The position numbers and the translations under genes were made by a program. DNA of 64,000 nt from Chaetoderma sp. LZ-2023a (taxonomy: Eukaryota; Mollusca; Caudofoveata; Chaetodermatida; Chaetodermatidae): positions 1 through 64,000 of the forward strand of contig JAVVLW010001576.1 in assembly GCA_034401795.1 (NCBI GenBank). Reading direction: 5' to 3'. Below are positions 17,581-62,516 of the stretch, piece by piece. A model generated the notes under the pieces. It did not search any database. It was not told the origin of the DNA and saw only the letters and a list, made by a program, of their open reading frames with translations. Position 1 is the stretch's first letter. Each line of letters opens with the position of its first letter.

Positions 17581-20500
17581 TTAGTTTAGGTTTGACAGAT
17601 TGGCGACGGCTACTGGATTAAGTGTGCTGGAGATGTCGCGAAGGTAGAAATCAGTGAATGACGACTCGGCATGCCATTGTGCTACAGACATCACCTGCTC
17701 TAATGAGACACGCTTATAAAGGGCCGATGATGCTGCTAGTGCTCGGACCTCATGGGCATTCGCACGATCAATCTGCTTTCCTGTAGCGATCTTGTGCGAC
17801 ATCTGAATAGCGTCAACTATCCAACGAGAAATAGTATCTTTCGAAGCACGTAAATGGGGAGCTTTGAGACATAACCACAGAGATTTCGGGTCGTCTCTCC
17901 ACTCAGAAGTACGTTTCTTATACATCTTCAGACATCTGACAGGACACCAAGCACAAGAATTTGGGTCATGTCTAGTTAAACTTGGCAAATTGATCGGCTG
18001 TCCTGGATATTTAAGTGACTGATTCTTTGCCAGGAAACAAAGACGTGGAAGTAATCTTAAACCTTCACCCGTGACGACAAAACGGTCTTGTTCGGCAGAA
18101 AGCGCATGAATCTCGCTTCTCCTTCTCGCCGACGCTGCTGCAACCAAGAAAACTGATTTAATAGTTAACAGTTTAATGTCAATAGATCTAATCGGTTCAA
18201 AGGGAGCATGCCCTAAAACCTGTAGAACAAGAGATAGATTCCATGATGGGATAGGAATTGGCTGTCTGGGTCGCAGATTGCTCATTCCTTTGATAACTTC
18301 ATTCAAGGTGTCATTCTCCACTCCCTCAATGGTGAGACTAGGAATGACCGAAGCTAATGCAGACTTATATGCTGCTAGGGTAGAAGGTACAAGTTTGTCA
18401 ACTTCGTATAAATGACAGATAAAATCTGCTACGTGTTGAACAGATGCAGAAAAGGGATCAATATCTCTTCTCTCACACCACTGTGCAAATTTGTTGATTC
18501 TATAATTATGTCTTTGTGGTTGAAACTCTTCTGCCTGAAGCAACAAACTTCGCTGCTTGCTCAGAAAAGCCACCCTCAATTGCACACTGCTTGACAACAT
18601 CCATGCAGTCAATTTGAACATTTCTGGTCTGTCGTGAAGGTACAGACCCTTGTTCTGAGAGATTACATCTCTTGTGTCTGGAAGAGGGATTGGACTGCAG
18701 ACCAGAAGGTCCAGCAGATCCGTAAACCATGATCGGCCTGGCCAATAAGGGGCGATCAGTAGTACTTGGCACATCCCCTCTCTTATCTTTGCCAGAACTT
18801 TCGGGATGAGAATTGTTGGAGGATACGCATACGCGTACATTCCCTTCCAACTTATCGCCAGTGCGTCTACTGCTAGAGCTAACGGGTCCGGGATCGGTGA
18901 CACGTAAGTAACCATCTTTGCGTTTTGATTCATCGCAAACAGGTCGACATTTGGCTTGCCCCATTGTTTGAATAGAACCTCTGCTACCACTTGGTTGAGC
19001 TGCCATTCCGTCGGACGACAAACCGTCCTTCGACTGAGAGCATCCGCTAAGATGTTCAATCTTCCTGGAATGTGTGCTGCCCGAAGAATAATATTCCTCT
19101 CTTGGCACCACAGCAGAAGGTTCCAAACCATCATACACAACTCTGGTGATCTCGTCCCGCCTTGGCGGTTCAAATAAGACACCACTGTTGAGTTGTCTGT
19201 CCTTACTAGGACAATCTTGTCTTGAATTAGACTCTCGAACTTCTGCAGTGCAAATACCACCGCTAATAGCTCGAGCACATTGATATGTTTCTGCGCATTG
19301 GTCCGATCCCATTCCCCTGACACTGACTGATTGTCCAATACCGCTCCCCAACCTGTCAACGATGCATCCGTGAATATGGACATCTGAGGTTGAGGAGGTT
19401 GTAGAGGAACACCTCGCAGGAGATTCTGTTCTGATAACCACCACTGAAGGTGGAATATCAATGGTTCTTTTACTGGTATCCTCAGAGATAACGAATCTGT
19501 TCTCTGTGACCAGAACGACATCAAATACATCTGAATCGGCCTGCGCCTGAGTGCCGCATATGGCACCACCTTCTCCAGAGATACTAGCAAACCCAGTATT
19601 CTGAGAAATTGACGCGCCGTCAGATAGGCTCCTAGAGAAACCGACTCCAACACTGCAATCAGGCTTCTGACTCTGCTCTCCGCCGGAAAAGCTACGCCGT
19701 CCCTGAGATTGAAGAAAATTCCCAGATAAACAAACTCCTGGGATGGAGTCAGTTCTGATTTCTCTAGATTCACAATCCATCCTAGCTTTTTCAACAAGTC
19801 TAGGACTACTATCAGATTGCTGCGCAGAGTGACTGGATTCCCCGCCTTTAGCAGCCAGTCGTCTATGTAAGTGTGAACAGCTATGTTTCTCCTGCGAAGT
19901 AAAGAAGTCATGGCGAGAACCACCTTGGTGAAGACCCTCGGCGCCGTGGTCAGGCCGAAGGGAAGAGCATTGAATTCCCAAACATTGTCTTGGAAGGCAA
20001 ATCGCAGGTACTTCTGAAAAGGAATTGACATTGGAATATGAAAATAAGCATCCTTCAGATCTATCGATACCGCCCACATGCCTTTCCTCAGCCCTGTCAT
20101 TACCGCTGCTACCGTCTCCATCTGAAATCTGGGAGAAAGAATAAATTTGTTCAACGGTTTGAGATTGAGAATTGGTCTCCACCCTCCGGTACGCTTCGGA
20201 ACTAGGAACATGATCGAATAGAAGCCCAGCGATGACTGATTGGTGACTAGGTGAATCGCATTCTTCTGACGAAGCGATTCTATCTCTGACTGAATGGCGA
20301 CTAGACGGTCTAATTCCCTTGGAATAGGAGTCCATATTGGAGTCGAGGTTAACGGAACTAACGATTGATGGATGAGCCAGTCCGGATCGTAGCCGTTTCT
20401 TATCCACTGACAGACTAAACAGTCGCGCACGACCTGTTCCCATTGGTTTAGGAATAGCTGAAGTCTGCCTCCGACGGAAGGAATCTGCACACAGTTGTCG

Positions 20501-20934
20501 GTCGAGATTAGCCGACAAGACGCTAAATCGCTTGGGTGAAGATTCTTGACTCCATTTGTTTCCAAAGCCGCCGGTATTGGTTCCGCCGGAAACCCGTCAG
20601 GAACGAGCCCCACGGCCGCCCCGCGGCTTCTTGTGGTATGACGGTCTGGAACCGCCGCCACGGCTATCCTTACGGTAGCCGCCTCGGCCCGAACCGCCAC
20701 CCTTCCTGTCGTCCTCATACGGCCTCTTACTAGAGGGCTTGTATGCGGACGAACGGCCAGGCCCTTGTGCTCAGGATGGCCTATGGGCATCACGGGCAGA
20801 AGGACGGAAGGGCGATCTAGGACGCTGTCTCTGCTGCTCCTGCCTATGCTGACGGTAGGACTGTTGCGGCTGAGTCCTCTTGGTCGACTTCCACGACTTG
20901 CCGACCACTTCTTGCTCCGCCACCATTGACGCAA
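17581..20934 (-). CDS. DIRS reverse transcriptase/RNase H fused in frame to tyrosine recombinase
   Basis: 1117-codon open frame. The N-terminal part overlaps gag. RT occupies about 230-450: SIDLKDAY with D292, LPFGLTTAPRVF, and the YIDD active site at 356-359. RNase H follows: D523 (FTDAS), E555, D580 (RTDNSTVV), D631 (LADALSR). Residues 640-745 form a conserved segment (VDLFA..YVSPIPDP..YAYPP) typical of metazoan DIRS. The tyrosine recombinase (about 810-1117) has R near 938 (ASARRRSEIHAL), HEVR 1061-1064, WH 1087-1088 and Y1097. RT copies the RNA; the recombinase inserts the circle without target duplication. The fusion is not ancestral: DIRS-A2 and DIRS-B keep two extra bases near 18509 that put the recombinase in the other frame. 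The first codon of the open frame is TTG, so the true start is unknown. Confidence 0.9.
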   Translation of the reverse strand: MRQWWRSKKWSASRGSRPRGLSRNSPTVSIGRSSRDSVLDRPSVLLPVMPIGHPEHKGLAVRPHTSPLVRGRMRTTGRVAVRAEAATVRIAVAAVPDRHTTRSRGAAVGLVPDGFPAEPIPAALETNGVKNLHPSDLASCRLISTDNCVQIPSVGGRLQLFLNQWEQVVRDCLVCQWIRNGYDPDWLIHQSLVPLTSTPIWTPIPRELDRLVAIQSEIESLRQKNAIHLVTNQSSLGFYSIMFLVPKRTGGWRPILNLKPLNKFILSPRFQMETVAAVMTGLRKGMWAVSIDLKDAYFHIPMSIPFQKYLRFAFQDNVWEFNALPFGLTTAPRVFTKVVLAMTSLLRRRNIAVHTYIDDWLLKAGNPVTLRSNLIVVLDLLKKLGWIVNLEKSELTPSQEFVYLGIFFNLRDGVAFPAESRVRSLIAVLESVSLGAYLTARQFLRILGLLVSLEKVVPYAALRRRPIQMYLMSFWSQRTDSLSLRIPVKEPLIFHLQWWLSEQNLLRGVPLQPPQPQMSIFTDASLTGWGAVLDNQSVSGEWDRTNAQKHINVLELLAVVFALQKFESLIQDKIVLVRTDNSTVVSYLNRQGGTRSPELCMMVWNLLLWCQERNIILRAAHIPGRLNILADALSRRTVCRPTEWQLNQVVAEVLFKQWGKPNVDLFAMNQNAKMVTYVSPIPDPLALAVDALAISWKGMYAYAYPPTILIPKVLAKIREGMCQVLLIAPYWPGRSWFTDLLDLLVCSPIPLPDTRDVISQNKGLYLHDRPEMFKLTAWMLSSSVQLRVAFLSKQRSLLLQAEEFQPQRHNYRINKFAQWCERRDIDPFSASVQHVADFICHLYEVDKLVPSTLAAYKSALASVIPSLTIEGVENDTLNEVIKGMSNLRPRQPIPIPSWNLSLVLQVLGHAPFEPIRSIDIKLLTIKSVFLVAAASARRRSEIHALSAEQDRFVVTGEGLRLLPRLCFLAKNQSLKYPGQPINLPSLTRHDPNSCAWCPVRCLKMYKKRTSEWRDDPKSLWLCLKAPHLRASKDTISRWIVDAIQMSHKIATGKQIDRANAHEVRALAASSALYKRVSLEQVMSVAQWHAESSFTDFYLRDISSTLNPVAVANLSNLN
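18506..20518 (-). CDS. Overprinted frame upstream of the tyrosine recombinase (DIRS-A1)
   Basis: A second frame stays open for 670 codons across the RT/RNase H region. It is rich in Ser, Arg, Gly and Gln and has no known fold. It ends with 'ARF-like' text leading into 'RRVSTTKT', directly where the recombinase N-terminus (NYRINKFAQWC) would follow if the 2-bp deletion were absent. In DIRS-B the same frame runs uninterrupted into the recombinase. DIRS-1 of Dictyostelium also has its recombinase ORF overlapping RT/RH. Whether the overprinted protein is made, or only its end, cannot be told from sequence alone. Confidence 0.5.
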   Translation of the reverse strand: MSANLDRQLCADSFRRRQTSAIPKPMGTGRARLFSLSVDKKRLRSGLAHPSIVSSVNLDSNMDSYSKGIRPSSRHSVRDRIASSEECDSPSHQSVIAGLLFDHVPSSEAYRRVETNSQSQTVEQIYSFSQISDGDGSSGNDRAEERHVGGIDRSEGCLFSYSNVNSFSEVPAICLPRQCLGIQCSSLRPDHGAEGLHQGGSRHDFFTSQEKHSCSHLHRRLAAKGGESSHSAQQSDSSPRLVEKARMDCESREIRTDSIPGVCLSGNFLQSQGRRSFSGGEQSQKPDCSVGVGFSRSLSDGASISQNTGFASISGEGGAICGTQAQADSDVFDVVLVTENRFVISEDTSKRTIDIPPSVVVIRTESPARCSSTTSSTSDVHIHGCIVDRLGSGIGQSVSVRGMGSDQCAETYQCARAISGGICTAEVRESNSRQDCPSKDRQLNSGVLFEPPRRDEITRVVYDGLEPSAVVPREEYYSSGSTHSRKIEHLSGCSQSKDGLSSDGMAAQPSGSRGSIQTMGQAKCRPVCDESKRKDGYLRVTDPGPVSSSSRRTGDKLEGNVRVCVSSNNSHPESSGKDKRGDVPSTTDRPLLARPIMVYGSAGPSGLQSNPSSRHKRCNLSEQGSVPSRQTRNVQIDCMDVVKQCAIEGGFSEQAAKFVASGRRVSTTKT

Positions 20935-42166: not shown

Positions 42167-42899
42167 CTTGTGATGTTTGCTTTCAGAGTGCTTGTGTTGC
42201 TTGCTTTCAGAGTGCATGCTTTAAGAGTGCCTGTGATGTTTGCTTTCAGAGTGCCTGTGATGTTTGCTTTCAGAGTGCTTGTGATGTTTGCTTTCATAGT
42301 GCCAGTGATGTCTGCTTTCAGAGTGCTTGTGATGTTTGCTTTCAGAGTGCCTCTGATGTTTGCTTTCAGTGCGCTTGTGATGTTTGCTTTCAGAGTGCTT
42401 GTGATGTTTGCTTTTAGTGTGCCTGTGATGTTTGCTTTCAGTGTGCCTGTGATGTTTGCTTTCAGTGTACCTGTGATGTTTGCTTTCAGGGTGTGTGTGA
42501 TGTTTGCTTTCAGAGTGCCTGTGATGCTGGCTTTCAGAGTGCCTGTGATGATTGCTTTTAGTGTGCCTGTGATGTGTGCTTTCAGTGTGCCTGTGATGTT
42601 TGCTTTCAGTGTGCCTGTGATGTTTGCTTTCAGGGTGTGTGTGATGTTTGCTTTCAGTGTGCCTGTGACATTTGCTTTCAGTGTGCCTGTGATGTTTGCT
42701 TTCAGTGTACCTGTGAAGTTTGCTTTCAGTGTGCCTGTGATGTCTGCTTTCAGTGTGCCTCTGATGTTTGCTTTCAGTGTGCCTGTGATGTTTGCTTTCA
42801 GTGTGCCTGTGATGTTTGCTTTCAGAGTGCCTGTGATGTTTTCTTTCAGTGTGCCTCTGATGTTTGCTTTCAGTGTGCCTCTGATATTTGCTTTCAGTG
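42167..42899 (+). repeat. 24-bp minisatellite, about 30 units
   Basis: Unit 'tgtgatgtttgctttcag' plus '(a/t)gtgcc'. The unit length is a multiple of three, so long repetitive open frames exist on both strands (plus DVCFQCAC, plus MFAFSVPV, minus TESKHHRH). They are side effects of the periodicity. The array sits in a TRAPPC11 intron. Confidence 0.95.
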
Positions 42900-42909
42900 T
42901 ACACTAATA

Positions 42910-43345
42910 ACAATGATTAACCCTTTAGTGGTCGAGCCAGTCAAAACTGGATTCTGCAGTGCTTTTGAAGAATATCCATTTGCAGGCCAAGAAACCTTTT
43001 GAAAATTCATTACTGGAATGTCTGGTGCAATAATTGAGCCAGTAATTCCAGTGATTTTTAAAAAGAATCTTAGCCCGCAAACGAGTCATTAAGCAATTTT
43101 TTTTTCCCTGAGCAATTATGACTCTTTCATGATGAAGCCGGCCAAAACCGGCCTCTGCAGTGGTCTTGAACAATGTCGCGTTGTGGCCCAAGAATATTTT
43201 TGAAAATTTATCAGTGGAGTGACTGGCTCAATAACTGAGCCAGTCATTCCAGTGATAAATTTTCAAAAGTAGTCTTCTCTTGGCCTGCAAATGGACAGCC
43301 AAGATGCAAACATCTTGATAGTCTTGACCAAATTTAGCCATGAAC
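42910..43345. repeat. Foldback (MITE-like) repeat, two adjacent copies
   Basis: Copies near 42920-43100 and 43110-43345. The second has arms 43200-43230 and 43236-43266 (31 bp, two mismatches) around loop 'ataac', nested in longer imperfect arms ending 'ggcctgcaaatggaca'. The flanks contain 'gg(c/t)caaaac(t/c)gg'. Confidence 0.75.
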
Positions 43346-49394: not shown

Positions 49395-52300
49395 TTAGTT
49401 TAGGTTTGACAGATTGGCGACGGCTACCGGATTAAGTGAGCTGGAGATGTCGCGAAGGTAGAAATCAGTGAATGACGACTCGGCATGCCATTGTGCTACA
49501 GACATCACCTCCTCTAATGAGACACCCTTATAAAGGGCCGATGATGCTGCTAGTGCTCGGACCTGATGGGCATTCGCATGATCAATTTGCTTTCCTGTAG
49601 CGATTTTGTGTGACATCTTAATAGCGTCAACTATCCAACGAGAAATAGTATCTTTCGAGGCACGTAAATGGGGAGCTTTGAGACATAACCACAGAGATTT
49701 CGGGTCGTCTCCACTCATTAGTACGTTTCTTATACATTTTAAGACATCTGACAGGACACCAAACAGAAGAGTTTGGGTCATGTCTAGTTAAACTTGGCAA
49801 ATTGATCGGCTGTCCTGGATATTTAAGTGACTGATTCTTTGCCAGGAAACAAAGACGTGGAAGTAGTCTTAAACCTTCACCCGTGACGACAAAACGGTCT
49901 TGTTCGGCAGAAAGCGCATGAATTTCGCTTCTCCTTCTCGCCGACGCTGCTGCAACCAAGAAAACTGATTTAATAGTTAACAGTTTAATATCAATAGATC
50001 TAATCGGTTCAAAAGGAGCCTGTCCTAAAACCTGTAGAACAAGATATAGATTCCATGATGGGATAGGAATTGGCTGTCTAGGTCGCAGATTGCTCATTCC
50101 TTTGATAACTTCATTCAAGGTGTCATTCTCCACCCCTTCAACAGTGAGACTGGGAATGACTGAAGCTAATGCAGACTTATATGCTGCTAGGGTAGAAGGT
50201 ACAAGTTTGTCAACTTCGTATAAATGACAGATAAAATCTGCTACGTGTTGAACAGATGCAGAAAAGGGATTAATATCTCCTCTCTCACACCACTGTGCAA
50301 ATTTGTTGATTCTATAATTATATGTCTTTGTGGTTGAAACTCTTCTGGCTGAAGCAACAAACTTCGCTGCTTGCTCAGAAAAGCCACCCTCAATTGCACG
50401 CTGCTTGACAACATCCATGCAGTCAATTTGAACATTTCCGGTCTGTCGTGGAGGTACAGACCCTTGTTCTGAGAGATTAGATCTCTTGCGTCTGGCAGAG
50501 AGACTGGATTGCAGACCAGAAGGTCCAGCAGATCCGTAAACCATGATCAGCCTGGCCAATAGGCCAGGGGCAGGGGGGGGGGCGATCAGTAGTACCTGGC
50601 ACTCCCCCTCTCTTATTTTTGCCAGAACTTTCGGGATGAGAATTGTTGGAGGGTACGCATACGCGTACATTCCCTCCCAACTTATTGCCAGTGCGTCTAC
50701 TGCTAAGGCTAGCGGGTCCGGGATCGGTGACACGTAAGTGACCATCTTTGCGTTTTGATTCATCGCAAACAGGTCGACATTTGGCTTGCCCCATTGTTTG
50801 AATAGAACCTCCGCTACCGATTGGTTGAGCTGCCATTCCGTCGGACGACAAACCGTCCTTCGACTGAGAGCATCCGCTAGGATGTTCAATCTTCCTGGAA
50901 TGTGTGCTGCCCGAAGAATAATATTCTTCTCTTGGCACCACAGCAGAAGGTTCCAAACCATCATACACAACTCTGGTGATCTCGTCCCGCCCTGGCGGTT
51001 CAAATAAGACACCACTGTCGAGTTGTCTGTCCTTATTAGGACAACTTTGCCTTGAATTAGGCTCTCGAACTTTCGAAGTGCAAATACCACCGCTAATAGT
51101 TCGAGCACATTGATATGTTTCTGCGCATTGGTCCGATCCCATTCCCCTGACACTGACTGATTGTCCAATACCGCTCCCCAACCCGTCAACGATGCATCCG
51201 TAAAGATGGACATCTGAGGTTGAGGAGGTTGTAGAGGAACACCTTGCAGGAGATTCTGTTCGGATAACCACCACTGAAGGTGGAATATCAATGGTTCTTT
51301 GACTGGAATCCTCAGAGATAACGGATCCGTTTTCTGAGACCAGAATGACATTAGATACATCTGAATTGGCCTGCGCCTGAGTGCGGCATATGGAACCACC
51401 TTCTCCAGAGATACTAGTAACCCCAGTATCCTGAGAAACTGGCGCACCGTCAGATAGGCTCCTAGAGAAACAGACTCCAAAACTGCAATCAGGCTTTTGA
51501 CTCTGCTCTCCGCCGGAAAAGCTACACCGTCCCTGAGATTGAAAAAGATTCCCAGATAGACAAACTCCTGGGATGGAGTCAGTTCTGATTTCTCTAGATT
51601 TACAATCCACCCTAGATCCTTTAATAAGGCTAGGACTATCTGCAGATTGCTGCGCAGAGTGACTGGATTCCCCGCCTTCAGCAGCCAGTCGTCTATGTAC
51701 GTGTGAACAGCTATGTTTCTCCTGCGAAGTAAAGAAGTCATGGCGAGAACCACCTTGGTGAAAACCCTCGGAGCTGTGGTCAGGCCGAATGGGAGAGCAT
51801 TGAATTCCCAAACATTGTCTTGGAATGCAAAGCGAAGGTACTTCTGAAAAGGAATTGACATTGGAATATGAAAATATGCATCCTTCAGATCTATCGACAC
51901 TCCCCACATGCCTTTCCTCAGCCCTGTCATCACTGCTGCAACTGTCTCCATCTGAAATTTGGGAGAAAGAATAAACTTGTTCAACGGTTTGAGATTGAGA
52001 ATTGGTCTCCATCCTCCGGTACGCTTCAGAACGAGGAACATGATCGAATAGAAGCCCAGAGAAGACTGATCCTTGACTAAATGAATGGCCTTCTCCTGAT
52101 GAAGAGATTGTATTTCTGACCGAATGGCGTCTAGACGATCTGATTCCCTTGGAACAGGAGTCCATATTGGAGTCGAGGTTAACGGAACTAACGATTGATG
52201 GATGAGCCAGTCCGGATCGTAGCCGTTTCTTATCCACTGACAAACTAAACAGTCGCGCACGACCTGTTCCCATTGGCTTAGGAATAATTGAAGTCTGCCT

Positions 52301-52764
52301 CCGACGGATGGCATCTGCACACAGCTGTCGGTCAAGATTGGCCGATAAGACGCTAAGTCGCTTGGGTGAAGATTCTCGACTCCATCTGTCTCCAAAACCA
52401 TCGGTAGTGGTTCCGCCGGAAACCCGTCAGGAACGAGCCCCACGGCCGCCCCGCGGCTTCTTGTGGTACGACGGTCCGGAACCGCCGCCACGGCTATCCT
52501 TACGGTAGCCGCCTCGGCCCGAACCGCCACCCTTCCTGTCTTCCTCATACGGCCTCTTACTAGAGGACTTGTATGAGGATGAACGGCCAGGTCCCTGTGA
52601 TCCGGATGGCCTATGGGCATCACGGCCAGAAGGACGGAAGGGCGATCTAGGACGCTGCCTCTGCTGCTCCTGTCTATGTTGACGGTAGGACTGTTGCGGC
52701 TGAGTCCTCTTAGTCGACTTCCACGACTTGCCGACCACTTCTTGCTCCACCACCATTGACGCAA
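49395..52764 (-). pseudogene. DIRS RT/RNase H and tyrosine recombinase, frameshifted (DIRS-A2)
   Basis: A 1045-codon open frame (52764-49627; first codon TTG) carries RT (SIDLKDAYFHIP, YIDD) and RNase H (FTDAS, RTDNSTVV, LADALSR). It then enters the recombinase frame through a 16-bp G-rich insertion near 50562-50582, skipping the normal end of the RT/RH ORF (still visible, ending at 50241). The recombinase is broken again near 49711, where 'tctccactc' replaces 'tctctccactc'. The catalytic HQVR and Tyr (FTDFYLRD) lie in a separate open stretch, 49781-49395. Not functional as it stands. Confidence 0.88.
50477..52273 (-). CDS. Overprinted frame across RT/RNase H (DIRS-A2)
   Basis: 598 codons open in the frame that normally leads into the recombinase. 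Clearly homologous to the 18506-20518 frame of DIRS-A1 (MGTGRARLFSLSVDKKRLRS..). It is cut off by the same insertion that breaks the RT frame. Confidence 0.45.
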   Translation of the reverse strand: MGTGRARLFSLSVDKKRLRSGLAHPSIVSSVNLDSNMDSCSKGIRSSRRHSVRNTISSSGEGHSFSQGSVFSGLLFDHVPRSEAYRRMETNSQSQTVEQVYSFSQISDGDSCSSDDRAEERHVGSVDRSEGCIFSYSNVNSFSEVPSLCIPRQCLGIQCSPIRPDHSSEGFHQGGSRHDFFTSQEKHSCSHVHRRLAAEGGESSHSAQQSADSPSLIKGSRVDCKSREIRTDSIPGVCLSGNLFQSQGRCSFSGGEQSQKPDCSFGVCFSRSLSDGAPVSQDTGVTSISGEGGSICRTQAQANSDVSNVILVSENGSVISEDSSQRTIDIPPSVVVIRTESPARCSSTTSSTSDVHLYGCIVDGLGSGIGQSVSVRGMGSDQCAETYQCARTISGGICTSKVREPNSRQSCPNKDRQLDSGVLFEPPGRDEITRVVYDGLEPSAVVPREEYYSSGSTHSRKIEHPSGCSQSKDGLSSDGMAAQPIGSGGSIQTMGQAKCRPVCDESKRKDGHLRVTDPGPASLSSRRTGNKLGGNVRVCVPSNNSHPESSGKNKRGGVPGTTDRPPPCPWPIGQADHGLRICWTFWSAIQSLCQTQEI

Positions 52765-54399
52765 CCTTGGAGAGCGCTTGCCGTGCCGAGCCGCCGAACA
52801 AGCCTGGACCTATGAAGGGCGCAGAAGATAATGCAGCCCTCATTTCCGGTCCTGGTTCTACACAATCGAGAACCATTCTCCGTCGCTCTGCCAACGTTCT
52901 AGTGATCACCCTGGCCAGGCAATCCTGAGACAGGCGCATGGTGTCCCGAACAATTCCGGGAGCAGCCTCTGGCACCTGTCCGCCTTCCGCCGTGCAGTCC
53001 AGCATACCCTGCAAGACGGTACACCCGTGCGACAGCGCAGCCATGGCTGCCCTCGCCGCATCCTCAATGAGCGTGAGCTCATTGAACGGGTCTTTGTTGG
53101 TCTGAGAAACCAAAGGACGTGACCGCCCCTTAGCCTTCCCAGCCAACGGCCTATTCAGCGCCTCTCGTTCCGCAACGGAAAGCCGTGGAACCCGGGCGTA
53201 CTGATGATAAGCCAGCTCCGGAAAACGGACCCTACTCCTTATCCCCTTCGGGGCCTTTGGTAACGCAGTCTGGCTGAACCAGACGGGTATGTCACAACTT
53301 CCAACATGTCAGAAGTCTGCGTATCCAATGGGAGTGTCGGCATGGCAGAAGAGCCACTTGACAGAGCGCTAGCCGCACGCTCTGACATCCGTTCCATCGC
53401 CGGATCGCGCTGAGATCCTAGATCAGATGCCAACCCGAGACGATTGGTCATCCATCCAAGGACCTGCACCCATTCAGCTTCGGTGCAGAAAACGGACTCG
53501 TCCATCAAAGAACTGCCGTTCTCATCCTCCCTCTCTCCCTTAGATGAAAGGGCCACCGACGATCCCTGCTGAACGCTATGATATGCGTCTCTGCCAGGAC
53601 AGAACGCATCCATAACGCGACTACCAGCGGCACCGGTGTCTAACGAATCGCCAGACCCGGATTCCCCGCAGTCCATCGGCTCCCGCACGGGATCCGGAAC
53701 TACGGCCGCCTGAACTACGGCTGGTACCGTCACTCCGATAGGAGCCGCACCTAACGCCGCCGGGATACCAGCAGGAACCGCAAAACACGGCTCCGCCGGC
53801 ATCTCTGGTTGCACAAACAGCGGATGGAATATGCCTGACGGAACGTCGACATCACCATCCGCCTGGCAAACCCGTACAAATCCCGAGGGCGACCCCTGGG
53901 ACGTACTAGGCCTTGCCGTCATCGAAATATCCGGCATGCCGGAATCTTCCATTAGCAGCAGATCTTCCTCCTCTATCGTCGGCTCTTGAGCCAAGGACAG
54001 AGAAGGGGCAGGTGCATGACCCTCAGCAGAACTAGCCGGACCACCTAATGGTTGTCCTGCACCAGCTTGCCTCACCGGGACCGTGGACTGCAACGAGTCA
54101 AACATCGCCTTGAACTGGGCCGCCCATACGCCCAGCGCTAAATCCATTCGTTCATTCAGACGACCTTCAAGTCCCATAAGAGACGCCTGCTGCAATTTCG
54201 CTGCCTTGTCCTTCGCGATCCTCTCCAGCCTCGCCCGTCGATCCCTGTCAAACTCTGCCACCATTGCCGACGACCACTTCACGCACACATCACAAGTGCT
54301 GCCGACCTTACACTGAGCGCACGCCACACAGTGATGTCCCAAGTACTTCCGCTTCATGAACCTGTTGCACTTCTGGCACGTGTCCGGATTCTTCGGTTT
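52427..54399 (-). pseudogene. DIRS gag-like protein, frameshifted (DIRS-A2)
   Basis: N-terminal part (54399-53239) with the Cys-rich finger (CQKCNRF..HHCVACAQC..TCDVCVKW) runs out of frame near 53262-53290: two bases are lost ('gcagtc' for 'gcatagtc') and one G gained. The C-terminal part (53146-52427) keeps the conserved region and the complete RGG/GRG-rich tail (RKGGGSGRGGYRKDSRGGG) that DIRS-A1 lacks. An acceptor 'ctctgtgttcgcag' ends at 54400, and no ATG precedes the finger. Confidence 0.85.
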
Positions 54400-55519: not shown

Positions 55520-55680
55520 ATACTTACCTCCCTAATACTTTTGATATTGCTAAATATTGGCTTTCACTCAATAAACACTCAGATTAAAAACAGTTAGGTG
55601 CCCCTACTGGGCAGGGAGTCAGAGCGTAGTCTGGCGGATGCCAGCCCCACCACCGCGCATGCGCAGACTAGCACTTCCTC
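55520..55680. repeat. DIRS-B inverted terminal repeat, 3' side
   Basis: About 160 bp, reverse complement of 62355-62516 with almost no differences. It includes 'gcgcatgcgc'. On the sense strand its outer edge reads 'agggag|gtaagtat', a strong donor-like sequence. Confidence 0.9.
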
Positions 55681-55765
55681 TGACTAGATTATTGGCTGAC
55701 ACACATGCAACTATTAAGAGCCTGAAGACCGAGCCTCTGTGGGGTGGAGAGGCCGGGTCCGTATC

Positions 55766-55864
55766 TAGGGAGGTAAGTATCAACTCTCTCGTGAAAAAAG
55801 AAATCCTAGATTTTGTTTATTTCACTTCAAGAGTATACTTACCTCCCTAATACTTTTGATATTG
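55766..55864. repeat. DIRS-B internal complementary region
   Basis: First part is the reverse complement of the 3' terminus (55485-55530, 'ctctctcgtgaaaaaag..'). Second part is the reverse complement of the 5' terminus (62495-62531, 'ttcacttcaagagtatac'). It fixes the element ends. Confidence 0.9.
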
Positions 55865-56397
55865 CCAGAATTCGAAAGTGAATCTGGCGGGAGGGAGGCG
55901 AGGTCAAAAGACCAGCTCATCCCTATACGCTTTTCTGCGTTTAAGGCACTTAAACTTCTGAAACTGTACGAAAAACAATCAGGATTTGACTAACCATCGG
56001 ATAACACCACCGATGTGAGAGAGATGACCGAATGTCATATGCGCTCCCCCCCCCTCCTTCCTGGGAGGAAGAGTCGACTGACCTCAATGTCCTATACGCT
56101 CTCTACGTACAAGTGCCATGTACTACAGGACAGAGACGAAAAAGCTCCATTTTCGTAAACTCTCAACAATGAACCACACAAATACACAAACCATCACCAT
56201 ATTAATAACGGGTAACGTGACAATACAATCAACAACGGACAACCCATGAACAAGACTGACCTTGTTGAAAATGGCTGCTGACATCATCTTCCCATTGGTG
56301 AAGACTGATGCAGGCCCAAAAAAGTGGGTGTTTCCATAAATTAATTGTGAAATATATAAGCAATGAGGAAAAACCTCCTCAAAAAATATAAACCGAG

Positions 56398-59295
56398 TTA
56401 TTTTTTCAAAATCGACAAGGCGAGAGGATTAGAGGTGTCACGGAGATAATGGTCTGTAAAACTGGACTCACAGTGCCATTGAGCCACCGACATAATATCA
56501 TCCACAGGGACCCCATTAAATAGGGCAGTGGATGTCACTACGCCGCGGACACTGTGAGCCTTGGCCACGTCAACCTGCTTCCCGGTGGCGGATTTATGGC
56601 AAAACTGAATGCATTCTACAATCCACCTTGAAATGGTGTCCTTAGAAGCCCTGCCATGGGGTTCAATATATGACAACCATAACGCTGACTGGTCGGTGCG
56701 CCACTCCGCCGTACGTTGTTTGTACCGGCGCAGCGCCCGGACGGGACACCATGCTTTAGAATTAGGATCATATCTAGTTAAAGCAGGCAAAATAATAGGT
56801 TGACCTGGATATTTCAACGACTGATTTTTAGCCAAGAAATTAATCCTAGGTAGCAGCTTAAGGCCTTCCCCTGAAACCACAAAACGGTCATCCTCGGCTG
56901 ATAAGGCATGAATTTCACTCCTACGCCTAGCCGAGGCCGCAGCAATTAAAAACACAGTCTTCAGTGTTAGTAGTTTCATAGAAATGGAACTAAGTGGTTC
57001 AAAAGGCTTATCACCTAGTACTTGAAGCACTAGCGATAAACTCCAAGACGGAATCACAGGTGGATTCCTTGGTCTTAGATTGCCCATGCCTTTAATTAAT
57101 ACATTTAATGTATTTACTTCATCACTTCCCCTCTTAGCCAAGCAAGGAATAACAGACATTAATGCTGACTTATAACCAGCAATAGAGTTAGGCTTGAGGC
57201 TATAGGCATCATAGAGGTGACAGAGGAAATCAGCTACTACTTGAATAGATGAACCCATTGGATCAATACATCTTTTTGAGCACCATTCTGCAAATCTGTT
57301 GATTTTATAATTATATGCTCTGGAGGTTGACCCCCTCCTGGCTTTGGCCATAAACATGGCTGCTTGCTCAGAAAAGCCCTCCTTAATTCTAGATTCCTTG
57401 ACAACATCCACGCAGTCAATCTGAACATTGACGGATTGTTGTGAAGGGCCTTGCCCTGGAAGATAATATCGTCCATCAGAGGCAGAGGAACCGGATTGCA
57501 GACCAGAAGGTCCAGCAGATCCGTATACCATGATCGGCTTGGCCAATCCGGGGCGATCAGAAGCACTTGGCATTCCTCTTGTCTGATTTTCTGAAGAATT
57601 TTTGGAATCAGGATTGCTGGAGGGAATGCGTATGCATACATTCTCCCCCAGCTGATAGCTAACGCATCTGTTGCGAAAGCGCTTGGATCCGGAATCGGAG
57701 AGACGTACGTCGTCATCTTCGCATTCTTCTTCGTTGCGAACAAATCGATGTTGGGTTTCCCCCAATGGTCGAACAGACGATCCGCCACACATTGATTTAG
57801 TTGCCATTCCGTGGGTAAAACACTCATCCTTCGGCTCAATGAGTCTGCTAGCAGGTTTAACCTTCCCGGAATATGAACTGCTTTCAAGGTAATCTGGTGA
57901 TCCAGACACCAACAAAGCAGTTTCCATGTCATCATACAGAGACTGGGCGACTTCGTTCCGCCCTGGCGGTTTATGTAAGTCACAACTGTTGAGTTGTCTG
58001 AACGAATAAGAACAATCTTGCCCTGAACTTTCTGTAAGAAATGTTCCAGGCCCAGGACTACTGCTCTTAGCTCCAGTAGATTTATATGTTCCTTTGACTG
58101 TTCCAGATTCCAAAGCCCTGATATCGTGGACTCTTCCAGGCAAGCTCCCCAGCCCTCCATCGATGCATCTGTATACACAGTCACCTGAGGGTGGGGAGGG
58201 GTTAGCATAACCCCCACCAAGAGATTCTCTGTGTCCAACCACCATTGCAGGTGATGAATCAGAGGCGCCAACACTGACACATTCGAGTCCAGCGAACCTG
58301 TACTCTGGGTCCATTGTGTCATGAGAAATAACTGGATCGGCCGCCTGCGTAAGGCGGCCTGAGGAATGACTGGTTCCAATGAAACCATCAACCCCAGCAT
58401 TCTCAAGTAAACCCGTGCCAGGACATGACGACTGTCGCACACTGACTGAATTAATGAGATGAGTTTCTGAACTCTCTCCTGAGTAGGATAAACATATCCT
58501 GTCTCTAGATCGAAGAACATCCCCAGGTAAACAAACTTCTGGGATGGAGTCAGCTCTGATTTTGGGAAATTGATCATCCAGCCTAAGTCTGTGAGAGTTT
58601 TCAAAACAATCTCCAGACTGGCCGACAAACTTTCCCGGGTGTGCGCTTTCAACAGCCAGTCGTCTATGTACATGTGGACTGCTATGCTTCTCCTGCGGAG
58701 GTATGCGGTGATCGCAAGAACCACACGGGTGAACACCCGAGGAGCCGTGGAAATTCCGAAGGGCAACACCCTGAATTCCCACTGTCTGCCCTGGAATGCA
58801 AATCTCAGGAAGCGACAGAAACTCCCGTGGATGGGGATGTGGAAATAAGCGTCCTTCAAATCTATCGACGCCGTCCACATCCCCCTCTCCAACCCCGCCA
58901 ACACCGAGCGCACCGTTTCCATCTTGAAACTGGGCGTCTCGATGAACTTGTTCAATGGCTTGAGGTTGAGAATCGGTCTCCACCCTCCGGTGCGTTTTGT
59001 TACTAAGAAGAGGGTTGAATAGAAGCCCGGACACCTTTGTGCCGGCTGAATAGCTCCCTTTTGTACGAGGGAATCTATCTCCTCCTCGATACACAACCTT
59101 TGCTCTGGATCTCTCGGAATGGGAGTCCAGACTGGCACTAGAGACAGTCGCGACGGCGGGCCTGTCATCCACTCTGGATGATACCCGACGGAAAGCCATC
59201 GCAAGACTAAACGGTCCTGAGTTAACCGTTCCCACTCTTGCATGTGGTCGGCTAGCCGGCCTCCCACCGGTCCACCTAGGGACAGAGGTGGACAC
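56398..59295 (-). CDS. DIRS tyrosine recombinase ORF with long overprinted N-terminus (DIRS-B)
   Basis: 965 codons, first codon GTG, so the true start is uncertain. The C-terminal third is a phage-type tyrosine recombinase: ASARRRSEIHAL (catalytic Arg), H914 and R917 (HSVR), W940-H941, and nucleophile Y950 (FTDHYLRD). It would resolve and insert the circular DNA without duplicating the target. The first roughly 650 codons lie over the RT/RNase H ORF in another frame and have no recognisable fold. The same overprinted frame is open in DIRS-A1 and DIRS-A2. The overlap copies the DIRS-1 gene order, in which the recombinase ORF overlaps RT/RH. Confidence 0.85.
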   Translation of the reverse strand: MSTSVPRWTGGRPASRPHARVGTVNSGPFSLAMAFRRVSSRVDDRPAVATVSSASLDSHSERSRAKVVYRGGDRFPRTKGSYSAGTKVSGLLFNPLLSNKTHRRVETDSQPQAIEQVHRDAQFQDGNGALGVGGVGEGDVDGVDRFEGRLFPHPHPREFLSLPEICIPGQTVGIQGVALRNFHGSSGVHPCGSCDHRIPPQEKHSSPHVHRRLAVESAHPGKFVGQSGDCFENSHRLRLDDQFPKIRADSIPEVCLPGDVLRSRDRICLSYSGESSETHLINSVSVRQSSCPGTGLLENAGVDGFIGTSHSSGRLTQAADPVISHDTMDPEYRFAGLECVSVGASDSSPAMVVGHRESLGGGYANPSPPSGDCVYRCIDGGLGSLPGRVHDIRALESGTVKGTYKSTGAKSSSPGPGTFLTESSGQDCSYSFRQLNSCDLHKPPGRNEVAQSLYDDMETALLVSGSPDYLESSSYSGKVKPASRLIEPKDECFTHGMATKSMCGGSSVRPLGETQHRFVRNEEECEDDDVRLSDSGSKRFRNRCVSYQLGENVCIRIPSSNPDSKNSSENQTRGMPSASDRPGLAKPIMVYGSAGPSGLQSGSSASDGRYYLPGQGPSQQSVNVQIDCVDVVKESRIKEGFSEQAAMFMAKARRGSTSRAYNYKINRFAEWCSKRCIDPMGSSIQVVADFLCHLYDAYSLKPNSIAGYKSALMSVIPCLAKRGSDEVNTLNVLIKGMGNLRPRNPPVIPSWSLSLVLQVLGDKPFEPLSSISMKLLTLKTVFLIAAASARRRSEIHALSAEDDRFVVSGEGLKLLPRINFLAKNQSLKYPGQPIILPALTRYDPNSKAWCPVRALRRYKQRTAEWRTDQSALWLSYIEPHGRASKDTISRWIVECIQFCHKSATGKQVDVAKAHSVRGVVTSTALFNGVPVDDIMSVAQWHCESSFTDHYLRDTSNPLALSILKK

Positions 59296-59618
59296 GAGGC
59301 ATGCAAGAGCGGCACTGTCCCCGTCGCCATAAACACCGGAGTGGTTCTTACCGCGGTAACCGTCCCGTCAGGACCGATAACCACGCCCAGATCCTCGCGC
59401 GCCCCGCCCCGCCCCGCGCGCACCTCGGTGCGCGGGCGGCTGCCTGGCTGACGGCGCCTGAGGAACCTGCGCCCCCCTCGCTGCTGGCCGAATCGCACGC
59501 GGCCGAGGCCGACGCTGCGACGGTGGCTGGCCTCTGACTTGGCCAGCACCACCTCGAGCCTGCAGGGGACGATACGCAGGGGGCGCGGCGCGAACGTTAG
59601 CACGACGCAGCACCTCAA
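57237..59618 (-). CDS. DIRS reverse transcriptase/RNase H (DIRS-B)
   Basis: 793-codon open frame, first codon TTG; the first ATG is codon 97. The basic N-terminal region overlaps gag by about 250 bp. RT at about 195-410: SIDLKDAYFHIP with D253, LPFGISTAPRVF, YIDD 317-320. RNase H: D484 (YTDAS), E516, D541 (RSDNSTVV), D592 (LADSLSR). A conserved segment follows (IDLFATKKNAK..YVSPIPDP..YAFPP). All catalytic residues are present. How it is initiated is not visible; frameshifting or reinitiation from gag is possible. Confidence 0.92.
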   Translation of the reverse strand: MRCCVVLTFAPRPLRIVPCRLEVVLAKSEASHRRSVGLGRVRFGQQRGGRRFLRRRQPGSRPRTEVRAGRGGAREDLGVVIGPDGTVTAVRTTPVFMATGTVPLLHASCPPLSLGGPVGGRLADHMQEWERLTQDRLVLRWLSVGYHPEWMTGPPSRLSLVPVWTPIPRDPEQRLCIEEEIDSLVQKGAIQPAQRCPGFYSTLFLVTKRTGGWRPILNLKPLNKFIETPSFKMETVRSVLAGLERGMWTASIDLKDAYFHIPIHGSFCRFLRFAFQGRQWEFRVLPFGISTAPRVFTRVVLAITAYLRRRSIAVHMYIDDWLLKAHTRESLSASLEIVLKTLTDLGWMINFPKSELTPSQKFVYLGMFFDLETGYVYPTQERVQKLISLIQSVCDSRHVLARVYLRMLGLMVSLEPVIPQAALRRRPIQLFLMTQWTQSTGSLDSNVSVLAPLIHHLQWWLDTENLLVGVMLTPPHPQVTVYTDASMEGWGACLEESTISGLWNLEQSKEHINLLELRAVVLGLEHFLQKVQGKIVLIRSDNSTVVTYINRQGGTKSPSLCMMTWKLLCWCLDHQITLKAVHIPGRLNLLADSLSRRMSVLPTEWQLNQCVADRLFDHWGKPNIDLFATKKNAKMTTYVSPIPDPSAFATDALAISWGRMYAYAFPPAILIPKILQKIRQEECQVLLIAPDWPSRSWYTDLLDLLVCNPVPLPLMDDIIFQGKALHNNPSMFRLTAWMLSRNLELRRAFLSKQPCLWPKPGGGQPPEHIIIKSTDLQNGAQKDVLIQWVHLFK

Positions 59619-61428
59619 ACTGCTCGCGCAGCGCCCTCTGGTTATTCACCAGGGTGACCGTCTCCTGGAGGTGTCGACATCCCTCACCTCCAAAAAGACC
59701 AGGACCCGTCATAGGCGTATGCAGTAGCCTATTGTACAGGTCCTGAGACGGGCACAGATTGTCCAGGGCAAACGTGCGTCTTGCCCGGACACTCCTGGTC
59801 ACCGCCCGAGTCATACAGTCCAGCGCCAGGTTAATACCATCCTGGATGGCTCGCTGGACCGTGACCGGACTTGGCTGGCGCGATGCGGATGCCGTTACTA
59901 CCCCCTGTAACAGCTGGGAGACGTGGGACAGAGCAGCAATCGAAGCCCTCCCACTCTCCTCCGCATCACGCAACGCGGTATTCGCCGAACGCAACGCGTT
60001 CGAGCACAAGACCCCCGTGTCAGAACGGGAGCCTGGCCGCGCATCCTCACCCAAAGCCGCGCGGTCATCCACGCTGGGCTTGGGTACCACACCGTACCGC
60101 TGGTAATCCAGGGGCACGATGCGACAACGCCTGGCCACCTCGCGAGGGGCCTTTGCGAGACGTCCACTCGACTTAATGGACGACTCCGCCGCCTCGAACA
60201 TGTCAACGACATGCTCCGCCAGCGGCAGAGAAGGCATAGCGTTAGCAGTCGGTTTCCCCGCTAACCACGGCCTGTGGTCACGCTGGCTAGCCGACTGCTC
60301 CACGGGCAGATCAGGCAGAACGCTCACCAACCACTGGCAAGCGTCAGACCAATCCTCCTCCGTGGCTAACTGCGAGCGCTCTACAAGACGGGGGCCTTCG
60401 TCTTCCTCCTGAGCGCAAGCAGTAGAGCATGACGGCGGGTACGCTGATACACCTGGCAAGCCAGGGAAAACATGCGGGCCTGACAGCACCGGCATGACAA
60501 TATCACTGGTTTGACCAGGAGCAGGCGCCGTGGTAGAGCGCTGGGCACATACCGCCCCACCACGGGCCCGGCCAGCACCAGCAACACCCTCGGCAAGCCG
60601 AGGTATGCGGTACCGCTGGCCATCAGCAGCGCCCTTGGCCACCACCTGAGCCGCGGACTCTACTCCAGGGTGAGTAAAACCGTGGAAGAAGCCGCCCGTA
60701 TTCCCCGCGAGGGGTGCACAAACGTCTTCATCCATGTCCACGTCGTCAGACGGCGACCCTAGCAGGTAATCCTCATCACCCTGGTCAGAAAGATTAGACC
60801 CCGGGTCAGCAAAGAGAGCTAACCCGGGCTGACCAGGAACGGTGCCATAGGAGGTACTGGCCACCGCGGCGTGCGGATACCCCTGGACTGATAAGCAGCC
60901 CGCGGGTTCCAGCGACAACCGTCCACGGTCCCCTATCGGCGCGGCAATAAGCCTGCTGCCAGGGTCGTGGAACGCCCCCTCTAATGGGGCCACCTCTGAA
61001 TCGTCGAACAACGGAAGCGGTCTAAGGAAAACCGATCCAGAGGCGGGGATTACCTGCTCCGAAGCCGATGATGAGGACAGTAAAGGATTTGGTCCAGGAA
61101 GCATGCCACGAAGCAACCCTGGAACCAAATCCTTTAATGTCCTCTTCATCTCTCCCAACATCTCGGTCCGGAAGGCCTCCATATCCACCGCGGACGAGGC
61201 CTTCCCCTTACCCTTCCTACTTACAACCTCTCGTTTCCGCTTCTTCTTCTTCTCCTCCTCTACCACCTTGTCCGTCGCCTGCAAGCACAAGAATTCGGAC
61301 ATTAACTCGCCCCCCCAGTGCTTACATATCTCACAATTACCCGATGGACCACAAGGGCTACATTGATAGCAAAGATGAGGCAAGAACTTATCATGCAGAA
61401 ATCGTCCACAGGACGCGCAACCCGGTCC
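59368..61428 (-). CDS. DIRS gag-like protein (DIRS-B)
   Basis: Begins with the same finger pattern as DIRS-A (CASCGRF..HLCYQCSPC..NCEICKHW), then a Lys-rich stretch (EEEKKKKRKREVV), an acidic variable region, a conserved block near the middle, and a Gly/Arg-rich C-terminus (GARGAGRGARGSGRGYRS). The frame is open upstream only to a TTG, and no ATG precedes the finger. A good acceptor 'tttgccctgtttcag' ends at 61429, so the protein start must come from an upstream exon. A candidate is ATG at 62237 (17 codons to donor 'cag|gtgact' at 62186), which joins in phase. The GC content is far above the flanks. Confidence 0.85.
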   Translation of the reverse strand, partial: GPGCASCGRFLHDKFLPHLCYQCSPCGPSGNCEICKHWGGELMSEFLCLQATDKVVEEEKKKKRKREVVSRKGKGKASSAVDMEAFRTEMLGEMKRTLKDLVPGLLRGMLPGPNPLLSSSSASEQVIPASGSVFLRPLPLFDDSEVAPLEGAFHDPGSRLIAAPIGDRGRLSLEPAGCLSVQGYPHAAVASTSYGTVPGQPGLALFADPGSNLSDQGDEDYLLGSPSDDVDMDEDVCAPLAGNTGGFFHGFTHPGVESAAQVVAKGAADGQRYRIPRLAEGVAGAGRARGGAVCAQRSTTAPAPGQTSDIVMPVLSGPHVFPGLPGVSAYPPSCSTACAQEEDEGPRLVERSQLATEEDWSDACQWLVSVLPDLPVEQSASQRDHRPWLAGKPTANAMPSLPLAEHVVDMFEAAESSIKSSGRLAKAPREVARRCRIVPLDYQRYGVVPKPSVDDRAALGEDARPGSRSDTGVLCSNALRSANTALRDAEESGRASIAALSHVSQLLQGVVTASASRQPSPVTVQRAIQDGINLALDCMTRAVTRSVRARRTFALDNLCPSQDLYNRLLHTPMTGPGLFGGEGCRHLQETVTLVNNQRALREQFEVLRRANVRAAPPAYRPLQARGGAGQVRGQPPSQRRPRPRAIRPAARGAQVPQAPSARQPPAHRGARGAGRGARGSGRGYRS

Positions 61429-62186
61429 CTGAAACAGGGCAAAGGACAAGGAGTATGAGCAAACTAGTTAAGCTTAGACACTCAAACCAACTCAAAGAGA
61501 AGGAAAACGATCATAAAGATCAATATACATCAGAAACCAGCATTGCAACTTAAATTGCTGATAAATACATAGCCAGGCTGATTATGACGTCATTAATCCC
61601 GTGACAGGAAAAAATCGATCCCAACAAACATCCAAGTGCGAGGACGAATTGTATGCTGAATGGATACGTCGACTACACAACCATCAGATACACATAGATA
61701 ACTCTTTTCTGGCAAAAATGTTAATTATCTCCCTTTGCTTACTATAATTAACATCACCACATTATCAATAACTAGATACCTGACACCTTGTATAGACAAA
61801 CCATCCAACGTGACGAACTGGAGTACTCCACCACCTGCACGCCTCTTAACTCTCTCCACCTCATGGGGAAGGAATTGGATCAAGAGGGCAAAGCGAGAAG
61901 ACCTTTATACTAGGCCTCCAACTCACTGGACATAAATCATTTGGTTAGATAACCTAACAGTGTTAGTAGGAAATGGAACCATGGTGGAGAGAAAACTAAC
62001 TCTCTGCTGCTGTGATGCCACCACCTAGCGTCATACAGACCTGTGGACATAAACAGAAAGAGAAATTAGCCTTAGGTAGCACCGAGTTGACATAAACCAA
62101 CTAACCAAGGCGCTTATCACGGTAAATGCGAGTCCCGGAAACACAATACACCGGGCAAAAAACTCGCTAATTTTACTAGAAGTCAC

Positions 62187-62354: not shown

Positions 62355-62516
62355 AGAGGAAGTGCTAGTCTGCGCATGCGCGGTGGTGGGGCTGGCATCC
62401 GCCAGACTACGCTCTGACTCCCTGCCCAGTAGGGGCACCTAACTGTTTTTAATCTGAGTGTTTATTGAGTGAAAGCCAATATTTAGCAATATCAAAAGTA
62501 TTAGGGAGGTAAGTAT
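62355..62516. repeat. DIRS-B inverted terminal repeat, 5' side
   Basis: Reverse complement of 55520-55680. Confidence 0.9.

Follow-up and report, generated by a model that had tools for sequence, protein, structure and literature searches.

The long open frame that overprints RT/RNase H in the DIRS elements of the window (the whole 64,000-nt stretch of Chaetoderma sp. contig JAVVLW010001576.1 that was analysed) is probably, as judged from its sequence, a translated pass-through that links Gag to the recombinase (YR) by readthrough of a UGA codon, whereas RT would be reached by +1 frameshifting at that codon or close to it. In families A and B gag and the overprint occupy one frame with a single UGA between them, and the frame of B extends into YR. 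Because gag and YR thus share a frame across one UGA, the openness of the overprint gets a reason.

All three copies of the window (DIRS-A1, DIRS-A2 and DIRS-B; Table 1) lie on the minus strand, and their RT frame is +1 relative to the gag/overprint/YR frame. A single frame runs in DIRS-B from 61467 to 56400 with one stop only, the UGA at 59370 (699 codons, UGA, 989 codons); L044, L053, L058 and L055 are organized likewise (690–699 codons, UGA, 982–989 codons). Measured from stop to stop, the YR frame of DIRS-B spans 56398–59367 (989 codons) and its RT frame 57237–59645, with an overlap of ~2.13 kb (709 codons), while the overprints of DIRS-A1 and DIRS-A2 span 18506–20596 (696 codons) and 50477–52426 (649 codons). 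The initial annotation had recognized these frames as open but too short (~2.06 kb; 670 codons at 18506–20518; 598 codons at 50477–52273), and its boundary at 59618 coincides with neither DIRS-B ORF end (59367, 59645). It did not mention that gag lies in the YR frame one UGA away. DIRS-A has the same gag-to-overprint order and frame as DIRS-B. An indel near the YR start of DIRS-A1 and DIRS-A2 shifts YR into the RT frame, so that the overprint is not continuous with YR and this region is considered decayed; gag of DIRS-A1 carries an additional nonsense codon at 20771–20773. Copies intact over their whole length make up only a part of the set: an indel costs L042 the frame ahead of YR, the frame of L056 stops at 896 codons, gag of L046 is broken and L007 has a stop within gag, 378 codons upstream.

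Table 1. Features of the DIRS copies in the window (positions on the 64,000-nt stretch).
Feature	Position	Strand	Remarks
DIRS-B inverted terminal repeat, arm 1	55520..55681		162 nt, 100% complementary to 62355-62516
DIRS-B inverted terminal repeat, arm 2	62355..62516		Partner of 55520-55681
DIRS-B internal complementary region	55766..55865		55766-55819 pairs with one terminus, 55820-55865 with the other
DIRS-B gag frame	59371..61467	-	699 codons stop to stop; first Met is codon 56
DIRS-B proposed recoding site UCC UGA CGG G	59364..59373	-	UGA 59370-59368; identical 10 nt in DIRS-A
DIRS-B RT/RNase H/MT frame via putative +1 shift at UGA	57240..59369	-	First codon GAC; open up to 59645
DIRS-B overprinted putative pass-through, codons 1-480 after UGA	57928..59367	-	Stop-free; amino acids unconstrained
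DIRS-B overlap with constraint in both frames	57240..57927	-	C-terminal RT/MT and N-terminal YR
DIRS-B YR-only part	56401..57239	-	Stop 56398-56400
DIRS-B conserved RNA helix, 5' arm	59300..59312	-	+56 to +68 after UGA; 13 bp in B
DIRS-B conserved RNA helix, 3' arm	59232..59244	-	+124 to +136 after UGA
DIRS-A1 site UCC UGA CGG G	20593..20602	-	UGA 20599-20597
DIRS-A1 overprinted frame	18509..20596	-	696 codons; indel ends frame before YR
DIRS-A1 13-bp stem, 5' arm	20581..20593	-	3 nt past UGA; 3' arm 20467-20479
DIRS-A2 site UCC UGA CGG G	52423..52432	-	UGA 52429-52427
DIRS-A2 overprinted frame	50480..52426	-	649 codons

The elements have the hallmarks of DIRS1-like retrotransposons: RT and RNase H, a long pol/YR overlap and, in DIRS-B only, inverted terminal repeats and an internal complementary region (54 nt at 98% and 46 nt at 100% complementarity). 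RVT_1 scores over the cut-off in DIRS-B (E = 2.2e-22) and DIRS-A1 (1.7e-22), and RT_RNaseH does so in DIRS-A1, its match in DIRS-B (1.2e-4) being just below. Dam matches are below the cut-off in both (0.0054 in DIRS-B, 0.092 in DIRS-A1), as are all but 7 of 143 in this genome. Only SAM-like N-domain models score in the YR part of DIRS-B (Phage_int_SAM_1, E = 9.5e-4, below cut-off), whose YR-only part is 62.5% identical to the A1 recombinase. The gag frame of DIRS-B, named from its position, has stretches 29–40% identical to A gag and gave no match in a Pfam search.

Not one stop is found in the 709 (DIRS-B), 696 (A1) and 649 (A2) overprint codons, a region delimited by the open frame itself but reaching, with next to nothing left out, from the gag stop into the YR overlap. 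Synonymous shuffles preserving protein and codon usage gave means of 25.2, 28.5 and 24.9 stops (sd 3.7–3.9), with 13–15 as the fewest among 2000 shuffles. The other sense frame has 54–63 stops and the antisense frames 24–43. Codons 1–480 alone have no stop versus 15–21 expected, in each of six copies tested. The same relative frame is interrupted at close to the expected rate in two distant controls, L040, an RT element of the same genome (49 stops in 586 codons versus 55.4), and L017 (39 versus 43.8). The initial annotation had held chance to be unlikely unless codon bias or selection keeps the frame open. Neither chance nor codon bias accounts for the openness, and the frame looks to be under selection.

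Searches of viral contigs and of genome contigs yielded no DIRS relative, and the usable copies came from the genome of the window. The copy table has 28 rows (25 of 58 loci plus the three window copies, some places being entered twice) and required an RT alignment of at least 550 codons at 50% identity or more, below which 33 of the 58 loci fell. The diverged A-like L039 (~60%) was judged decayed and dropped. The criterion by which most copies had been chosen was openness of the RT frame and not that of the overprint. RT is free of stops in 23 of the 28 rows and the overprint in 21 of these 23 (11 of 13 when L001–L008 and L027/L028 are left out). The exceptions, L048 and L054, have one overprint stop each despite an intact RT; in L048 the stop comes early, 80 nt from where the RT core begins, and in L054 the UGA is missing as well. 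No RT-silent change creating an overprint stop separates A1 from A2, B from L055 or B from L044 (~31.6, 30.8 and 29.8 sites). The pair B–L046 gives 4.5 counts in this class under a single-base classification, with adjacent bases differing too, and neither sequence has an actual overprint stop. That chance, codon bias or shared ancestry holds the frame open is extremely unlikely. Families A and B are related (~66% DNA identity over RT) and hence their copies are not independent, but shuffles with the same protein and codon usage predict 15–28 stops where none is seen, RT-silent changes to stops are missing in the three pairs named and the two controls carry stops in the same relative frame.

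In codons 1–480 the amino acids of the overprint evolve close to neutrality (SN/SS 1.08, 0.70–2.15; NN/NS 1.05, 0.82–1.36) while the RT frame is constrained (0.25); from codon 480 to the end the overprint value is 0.37 (0.19–1.64), these limits being wide because few sites are silent in both frames. Constraint sets in at about codons 500–540, together with YR; in the last part of the overlap the SN rate drops and overprint identity climbs to ~0.85–0.9. The constrained portion is thus only the last ~150–200 codons, which are part of YR. The first ~480 codons are subject to stop exclusion only, with no detectable amino-acid constraint. The initial annotation had suggested that the overprint could be a genuine domain, rich in Ser, Arg and Gly and joined to the recombinase. 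Compared with shuffles, Ser is enriched (13.6 versus 9.2% in B, 17.6 versus 11.4% in A1), but Arg is not (8.2 versus 9.6%, 8.9 versus 8.9%) and Gly barely (11.3 versus 10.1%, 9.5 versus 9.4%). That the overprint encodes a low-complexity domain with a function on which selection acts at the protein level, as the Ser enrichment and the constrained end of the overlap would favour, is very unlikely: besides the neutral rates, the overprint found no Pfam or PHROG family match and its B–L046 identity before codon 540 is 0.43–0.72, against 0.82 for RT over the overlap. The proposal is not supported for most of the length. Selection on bulk composition alone is possible.

The UGA is retained in 21 of the 22 copies where the site could be read and the context NCC-UGA-Y in 20 of 22, including L045 that shows CC only; L001–L008 are additional to these counts, all as in B, and loci without a match covering the site are omitted. 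Families A and B have UCC-UGA-CGG. The P-site codon is UCC in A, B and B', and GCC or ACC in B2, B3 and B4. CGG follows the UGA in A and B only, being absent from B', B2, B3 and B4; the triplet outside A and B is CAG, UGG, UGC or, in the decayed L037, AGG. RT of B2 (L044, L053, L058) is open for only 36 codons upstream of the UGA and its first ATG is found at +448, inside RT, so that the RT core can hardly be AUG-initiated. RT-frame constraint is weak directly after the UGA, and therefore selection does not fix the +1 shift point. Pairwise alignments beside the UGA are good for B–L044 and the A pairs only, the latter with too few differences, and poor for B–L046, L044–L046 and B–L052. All families compared belong to one genome.

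An RNA helix of 13 bp lies 55 nt after the UGA in B and covaries in B2, B3 and B4. When 3641 aligned columns were scanned for helices of at least 8 bp, spanning no more than 140 and paired in each of B, L044, L052 and L046, it ranked first. This top one of 14 candidates (+58/+129 from the UGA) has four pairs changed on both sides and the next one two. Pairing holds in 96.8% of cells and covariation is 0.330 versus 0.168 in shuffled alignments (0 of 500 reached it), slid versions giving at most 0.114. The helix starts at +56 or +65/+67 in the B clade and at +4 in A, whose stem is spaced by 3 nt from the UGA and bears no covariation information. Stretches of 68 and 148 nt downstream of the UGA fold with unexceptional energies (z +0.67 to −1.85), and when only stem length is considered, 2–48 of 100 shuffles reach it. 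Covariation is more telling than energy-based folding at this junction.

Gag would end at a weak, recodable UGA where most ribosomes terminate. A minority would insert an amino acid and stay in frame 0, traversing ~480 codons whose sequence is immaterial barring stops before entering YR, to yield a Gag-linker-recombinase fusion; another minority would move into the +1 frame on the UGA or immediately ahead of it, giving RT/RNase H/MT as a Gag-Pol fusion. The RNA structure 3' of the UGA would tune the balance between the two events, and the overprint would have no message of its own. The pass-through reading rests on stop exclusion as the only signal in the first ~480 codons and on constraint that starts with YR; neutral codons opposite a constrained RT are what a spacer that must be translated predicts. 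We infer that readthrough and frameshifting do occur, with stimulation by the helix, and that their fusion products are the working proteins. The stronger proposal, that one UGA acts as a three-way switch between termination (Gag), +1 shift (Gag-Pol) and readthrough across ~480 stop-free codons (Gag-recombinase), may hold with a chance somewhat short of even.

Other routes to YR were weighed. An internal start, such as the AUG at overprint codon ~521, could be used by reinitiation, an IRES or a shorter transcript, leaving the upstream overprint untranslated. Amino-acid constraint indeed begins near there and G-M-A at codons 520–522 is identical in A and B, but that AUG sits where RT encodes Glu-Trp and may be preserved by RT, and the absence of the 15–21 stops expected in codons 1–480 would be left unexplained. 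This is an unlikely explanation of the overprint; an internal start could also be a second route. Termination at the gag UGA followed by frame-0 reinitiation at a nearby AUG, which would have the overprint translated but unfused to Gag, is quite unlikely. Frame-0 AUGs are present (in the B clade at +171 or +183, with +75 in some copies; in A at +156), and the stop-free first 56 overprint codons are weak evidence alone (P 0.05–0.50), so that ribosomes may enter the frame a little past the UGA. However, the AUGs of A and B are not at matching places relative to the RT core, and gag in the YR frame and the retained UGA would be coincidences. Splicing of Gag to YR was also considered, but would not require an open overprint, as was selenocysteine incorporation at the UGA.

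The antizyme of ornithine decarboxylase is produced by a +1 frameshift at UCC_UGA with a 3' pseudoknot and a polyamine response. The DIRS site resembles it by the P-site UCC followed by UGA in A, B and B', a wanted product in the +1 frame and a 3' RNA helix. It differs by GCC or ACC before the UGA in B2, B3 and B4, and by frame 0 past the UGA being also open and leading to another enzyme. Type II readthrough, in the available text of a plant RNA virus paper (PMC11166343), takes place at UGA-CGG or UGA-CUA with an RNA structure 6–12 nt 3'. UGA-CGG in A and B and the 3' helix are similar, but CGG is not kept in the other families and the UGA is separated from the helix by 55 nt in B and by 3 nt in A. 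By analogy, UCC-UGA-CGG in A and B joins an antizyme-like +1 site with a type II-like readthrough context. UGA_CUA increased readthrough and decreased frameshifting, as given in the accessible part of PMC9841425, and since it moved them oppositely the two events compete. Tca2 of Candida albicans (gag-UGA-pol; PMC2194720, available part) is likewise a retroelement with its next gene beyond the gag UGA; that gene is pol, whereas here it is a frame that overprints pol and leads to the recombinase.

ORF overlap had been described by the initial annotation as known for DIRS-1, and it is known in DIRS elements: in the consulted text of PMC3266345 half of 28 DIRS1-like elements have a long pol/YR overlap. 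Gag, RT/RH with a putative MT, a putative YR, inverted terminal repeats and the internal complementary region are shared with those elements, as is the location of the (here putative) catalytic part of YR at the 3' end, beyond the overlap. In that text the overlap is listed without a proposed mechanism, whereas in the present elements one UGA is all that interrupts the common frame of gag and YR, and the overprint acts over most of its length like a spacer. A literature search covering few of the subscription papers and none of the older ones on DIRS showed, among the papers listed, no account of DIRS elements using readthrough or frameshifting, and the accessible portions of the YR-retrotransposon literature held no statement on how DIRS express pol and recombinase. 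The overlap itself being already known, what looks new is the reason proposed for it, the frame shared by gag and YR across the UGA.

The long-known ORF overlap thereby becomes a testable recoding model. It offers an example in which a long overlapping frame is seemingly selected for openness rather than for encoded content, and a caution for methods that treat openness as evidence for a protein domain. If the three-way switch is real, a single codon, acting beneath a single RNA structure, would be where a DIRS element sets the ratio between its structural protein, polymerase and recombinase.

Three DIRS-type retrotransposon copies, all on the minus strand, are found in the window: A1 and A2, which share 93% DNA identity, and B, about 66% identical to A over the reverse transcriptase (RT) and tyrosine recombinase (YR) regions. 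Gag and the open frame that overprints RT/RNase H (RH) are one frame, as found by reading outwards from the overprint. In B a single stop precedes the frame end, and in DIRS-A the gag stop lies at the matching junction and is directly followed by the open overprint. The 10-nt junction UCC UGA CGG G is identical in A and B. Further copies were collected from the same genome by a Dam-domain search and from one batch of 20 regions. The UGA is kept in 21 of the 22 copies whose site was read and NCC-UGA-Y in 20 of them (L045 being counted with only CC visible); the exceptions are L054, which has a sense codon, and the decayed copy L037 (UGA-A). Seven copies were followed from gag to the end of YR. 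In five of them (window B, L044, L053, L058 and L055) the UGA is the only interruption; gag is broken in L046, and L049 is truncated. Other copies carry a break at some point.

Features of the window and related loci, and sequence at the gag stop
Copy or region	Positions	Feature
DIRS-B frame	61467 to 56400	single stop, UGA at 59370-59368
DIRS-B gag	61067-61150	27-nt inverted repeat (93%), 30-nt gap
DIRS-B overprint	57805-57807	Met of G-M-A, codon 521
A1, A2	17584-20979, 49630-52809	RT and YR in one frame
Window	14934-15962, 31006-31812	Tc1/mariner-type transposase ORFs (HTH_Tnp_Tc3_2, DDE_3), one of 343 codons, one of 269
Window	42103-42916	long ORFs in three frames, both strands; only implausible domain matches; possibly a repeat array
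L040	2597-6430	gag-like ORF with CCHC-like motif (by eye); RT overlaps it by about 50 nt
L054 (B3 copy)	3246-3475	Gag and overprint joined without stop at the gag UGA position; overprint has a stop
B' (L042, L055)		UCC UGA CAG
B2 (L044, L053, L058, L048, L057)		GCC UGA UGG
B3 (L046, L049, L056, L051)		GCC UGA UGC
B4 (L052)		ACC UGA CAG
L022 (near B3)		GCC UGA UGG
L041 (near B3)		ACC UGA UGG
L013		GCC UGA UGG
L001-L008		all match the B site

The inverted terminal repeats of DIRS-B are perfect over 162 nt, and the element also contains an internal complementary region. It carries a gag frame, an RT/RH frame with a weak match to Dam-like methyltransferases (MT), and a YR-like end. Among 3118 first-look candidates in the host genome, at least 40 match it at 99-100% identity, counting the copy in the window, which makes it a young element. 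Both A copies have decayed through indels close to where YR starts, and the A1 gag has a nonsense codon besides. These indels, different in the two copies, fuse RT and YR, so the apparent ORFs of 1132 and 1060 codons are decay products and not fused enzymes.

The overprint frame lies one base behind RT, each of its codons combining the third base of an RT codon with the first two bases of the one after. It has no stop over 709 (B), 696 (A1) and 649 (A2) codons, while synonymous shuffles that held the RT protein and codon usage constant gave means of 25.2, 28.5 and 24.9 stops, respectively, and never fewer than 13 in 2000. In the remaining sense frame 54-63 stops occur. Codons 1-480 alone (numbered from the gag UGA) are free of overprint stops in each of six copies tested, against 15-21 expected. 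The distant RT element L040 of the same genome (28% identity) served as no-overlap control: over 586 codons its corresponding frame contains 49 stops, where 55.4 would be expected. In L017, compared by stop count only, the figures are 39 stops over 478 codons and 43.8 expected. The openness is thus not a product of codon bias. A separate downstream ORF of L040, which matched no Pfam model, may be its recombinase.

Every possible and observed substitution was classed by its effect in both frames, pooling A1-A2, B-L044 and B-L046. Over codons 1-480 the per-site ratio of RT-silent, overprint-altering changes to changes silent in both frames is 1.08 (95% limits 0.70-2.15) and, among RT-altering changes, that of overprint-altering to other changes is 1.05 (0.82-1.36); RT is constrained (0.25). 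The overprint ratio goes down to 0.37 from codon 480 onward (0.19-1.64), and B-L046 overprint identity is at the YR-only level from about codon 540. The limits are wide throughout, owing to the few sites silent in both frames. The first ~480 codons seem to be kept free of stops, not for the sequence they encode, and the YR protein proper probably starts near codon 500-540. This is the pattern expected if ribosomes must cross the segment in frame 0 to make YR. The Met at codon 521, near the onset of YR constraint, is identical in A and B; it is possibly a second YR start, or forced by Glu-Trp in RT.

RT lies in the +1 frame relative to gag. This frame is open for just 36 codons before the UGA in L044, L053 and L058, and its first ATG (+448, in nt after the UGA) is inside RT, whose core starts at about +100. 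This argues that RT would most simply be entered by recoding from gag within the short stretch ending at the UGA. Over the final 36 gag codons, B and L044 differ by 4, 2 and 9 substitutions at codon positions 1, 2 and 3, in keeping with the gag reading frame; differences within the A pairs are too few for this comparison. The shift would lie at or near the UGA, as RT constraint is weak for some 60 codons downstream of it. UCC_UGA is described as the site at which most antizyme genes shift +1 (PMC5009743), and a C after the antizyme UGA lowered termination, with compensating changes in +1 shifting and readthrough (PMC9841425).

A helix 3' of the UGA stays paired through both-side changes in 14 B-clade copies (12 distinct), with 96.8% of cells paired and both sides changed at 3 of 8 pairs. 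No shuffle out of 500 reached its covariation of 0.330 (0.168 in shuffles), and slid versions stayed at or below 0.114; by the number of both-side-changed pairs alone, 320 of 500 shuffles equalled it. The helix was first picked by eye. A scan for helices of at least 8 bp shared by B, L044, L052 and L046 (3641 aligned columns) found 14, among which this one ranks first (10 bp, four both-side-changed pairs, +58/+129); the next has two. In DIRS-A the stem is another one, of 13 bp, with a 3-nt spacer from the UGA, and covariation gives no information on it. Folding energies after the UGA are not exceptional, and the length of the stem, taken by itself, is often equalled in shuffles. The 55-nt spacing in DIRS-B is unlike type II readthrough, whose structure lies 6-12 nt 3' of the stop (excerpts of PMC11166343).

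The best reading of these sequences is that Gag would end at a recodable UGA; frame-0 readthrough would then yield Gag-spacer-YR, and Gag-RT/RH/MT would come from a +1 shift there or close by. The sequences themselves show the frame geometry, the pattern of selection and the conservation of the helix, from which both recoding events and the part played by the helix are inferred. A long pol/YR overlap is already known in half of 28 DIRS elements, the catalytic portion of YR lying in the end that does not overlap (PMC3266345). The sections read of that paper and of PMC9210276, PMC5633606, PMC3783388 and PMC6681497 make no mention of Gag-YR readthrough or a UCC_UGA site in DIRS, and searches covering mostly openly accessible literature returned no report of either. 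YR retrotransposons are described as lacking an aspartic protease (sections of PMC3783388), so the Gag fusion proteins might stay uncut.
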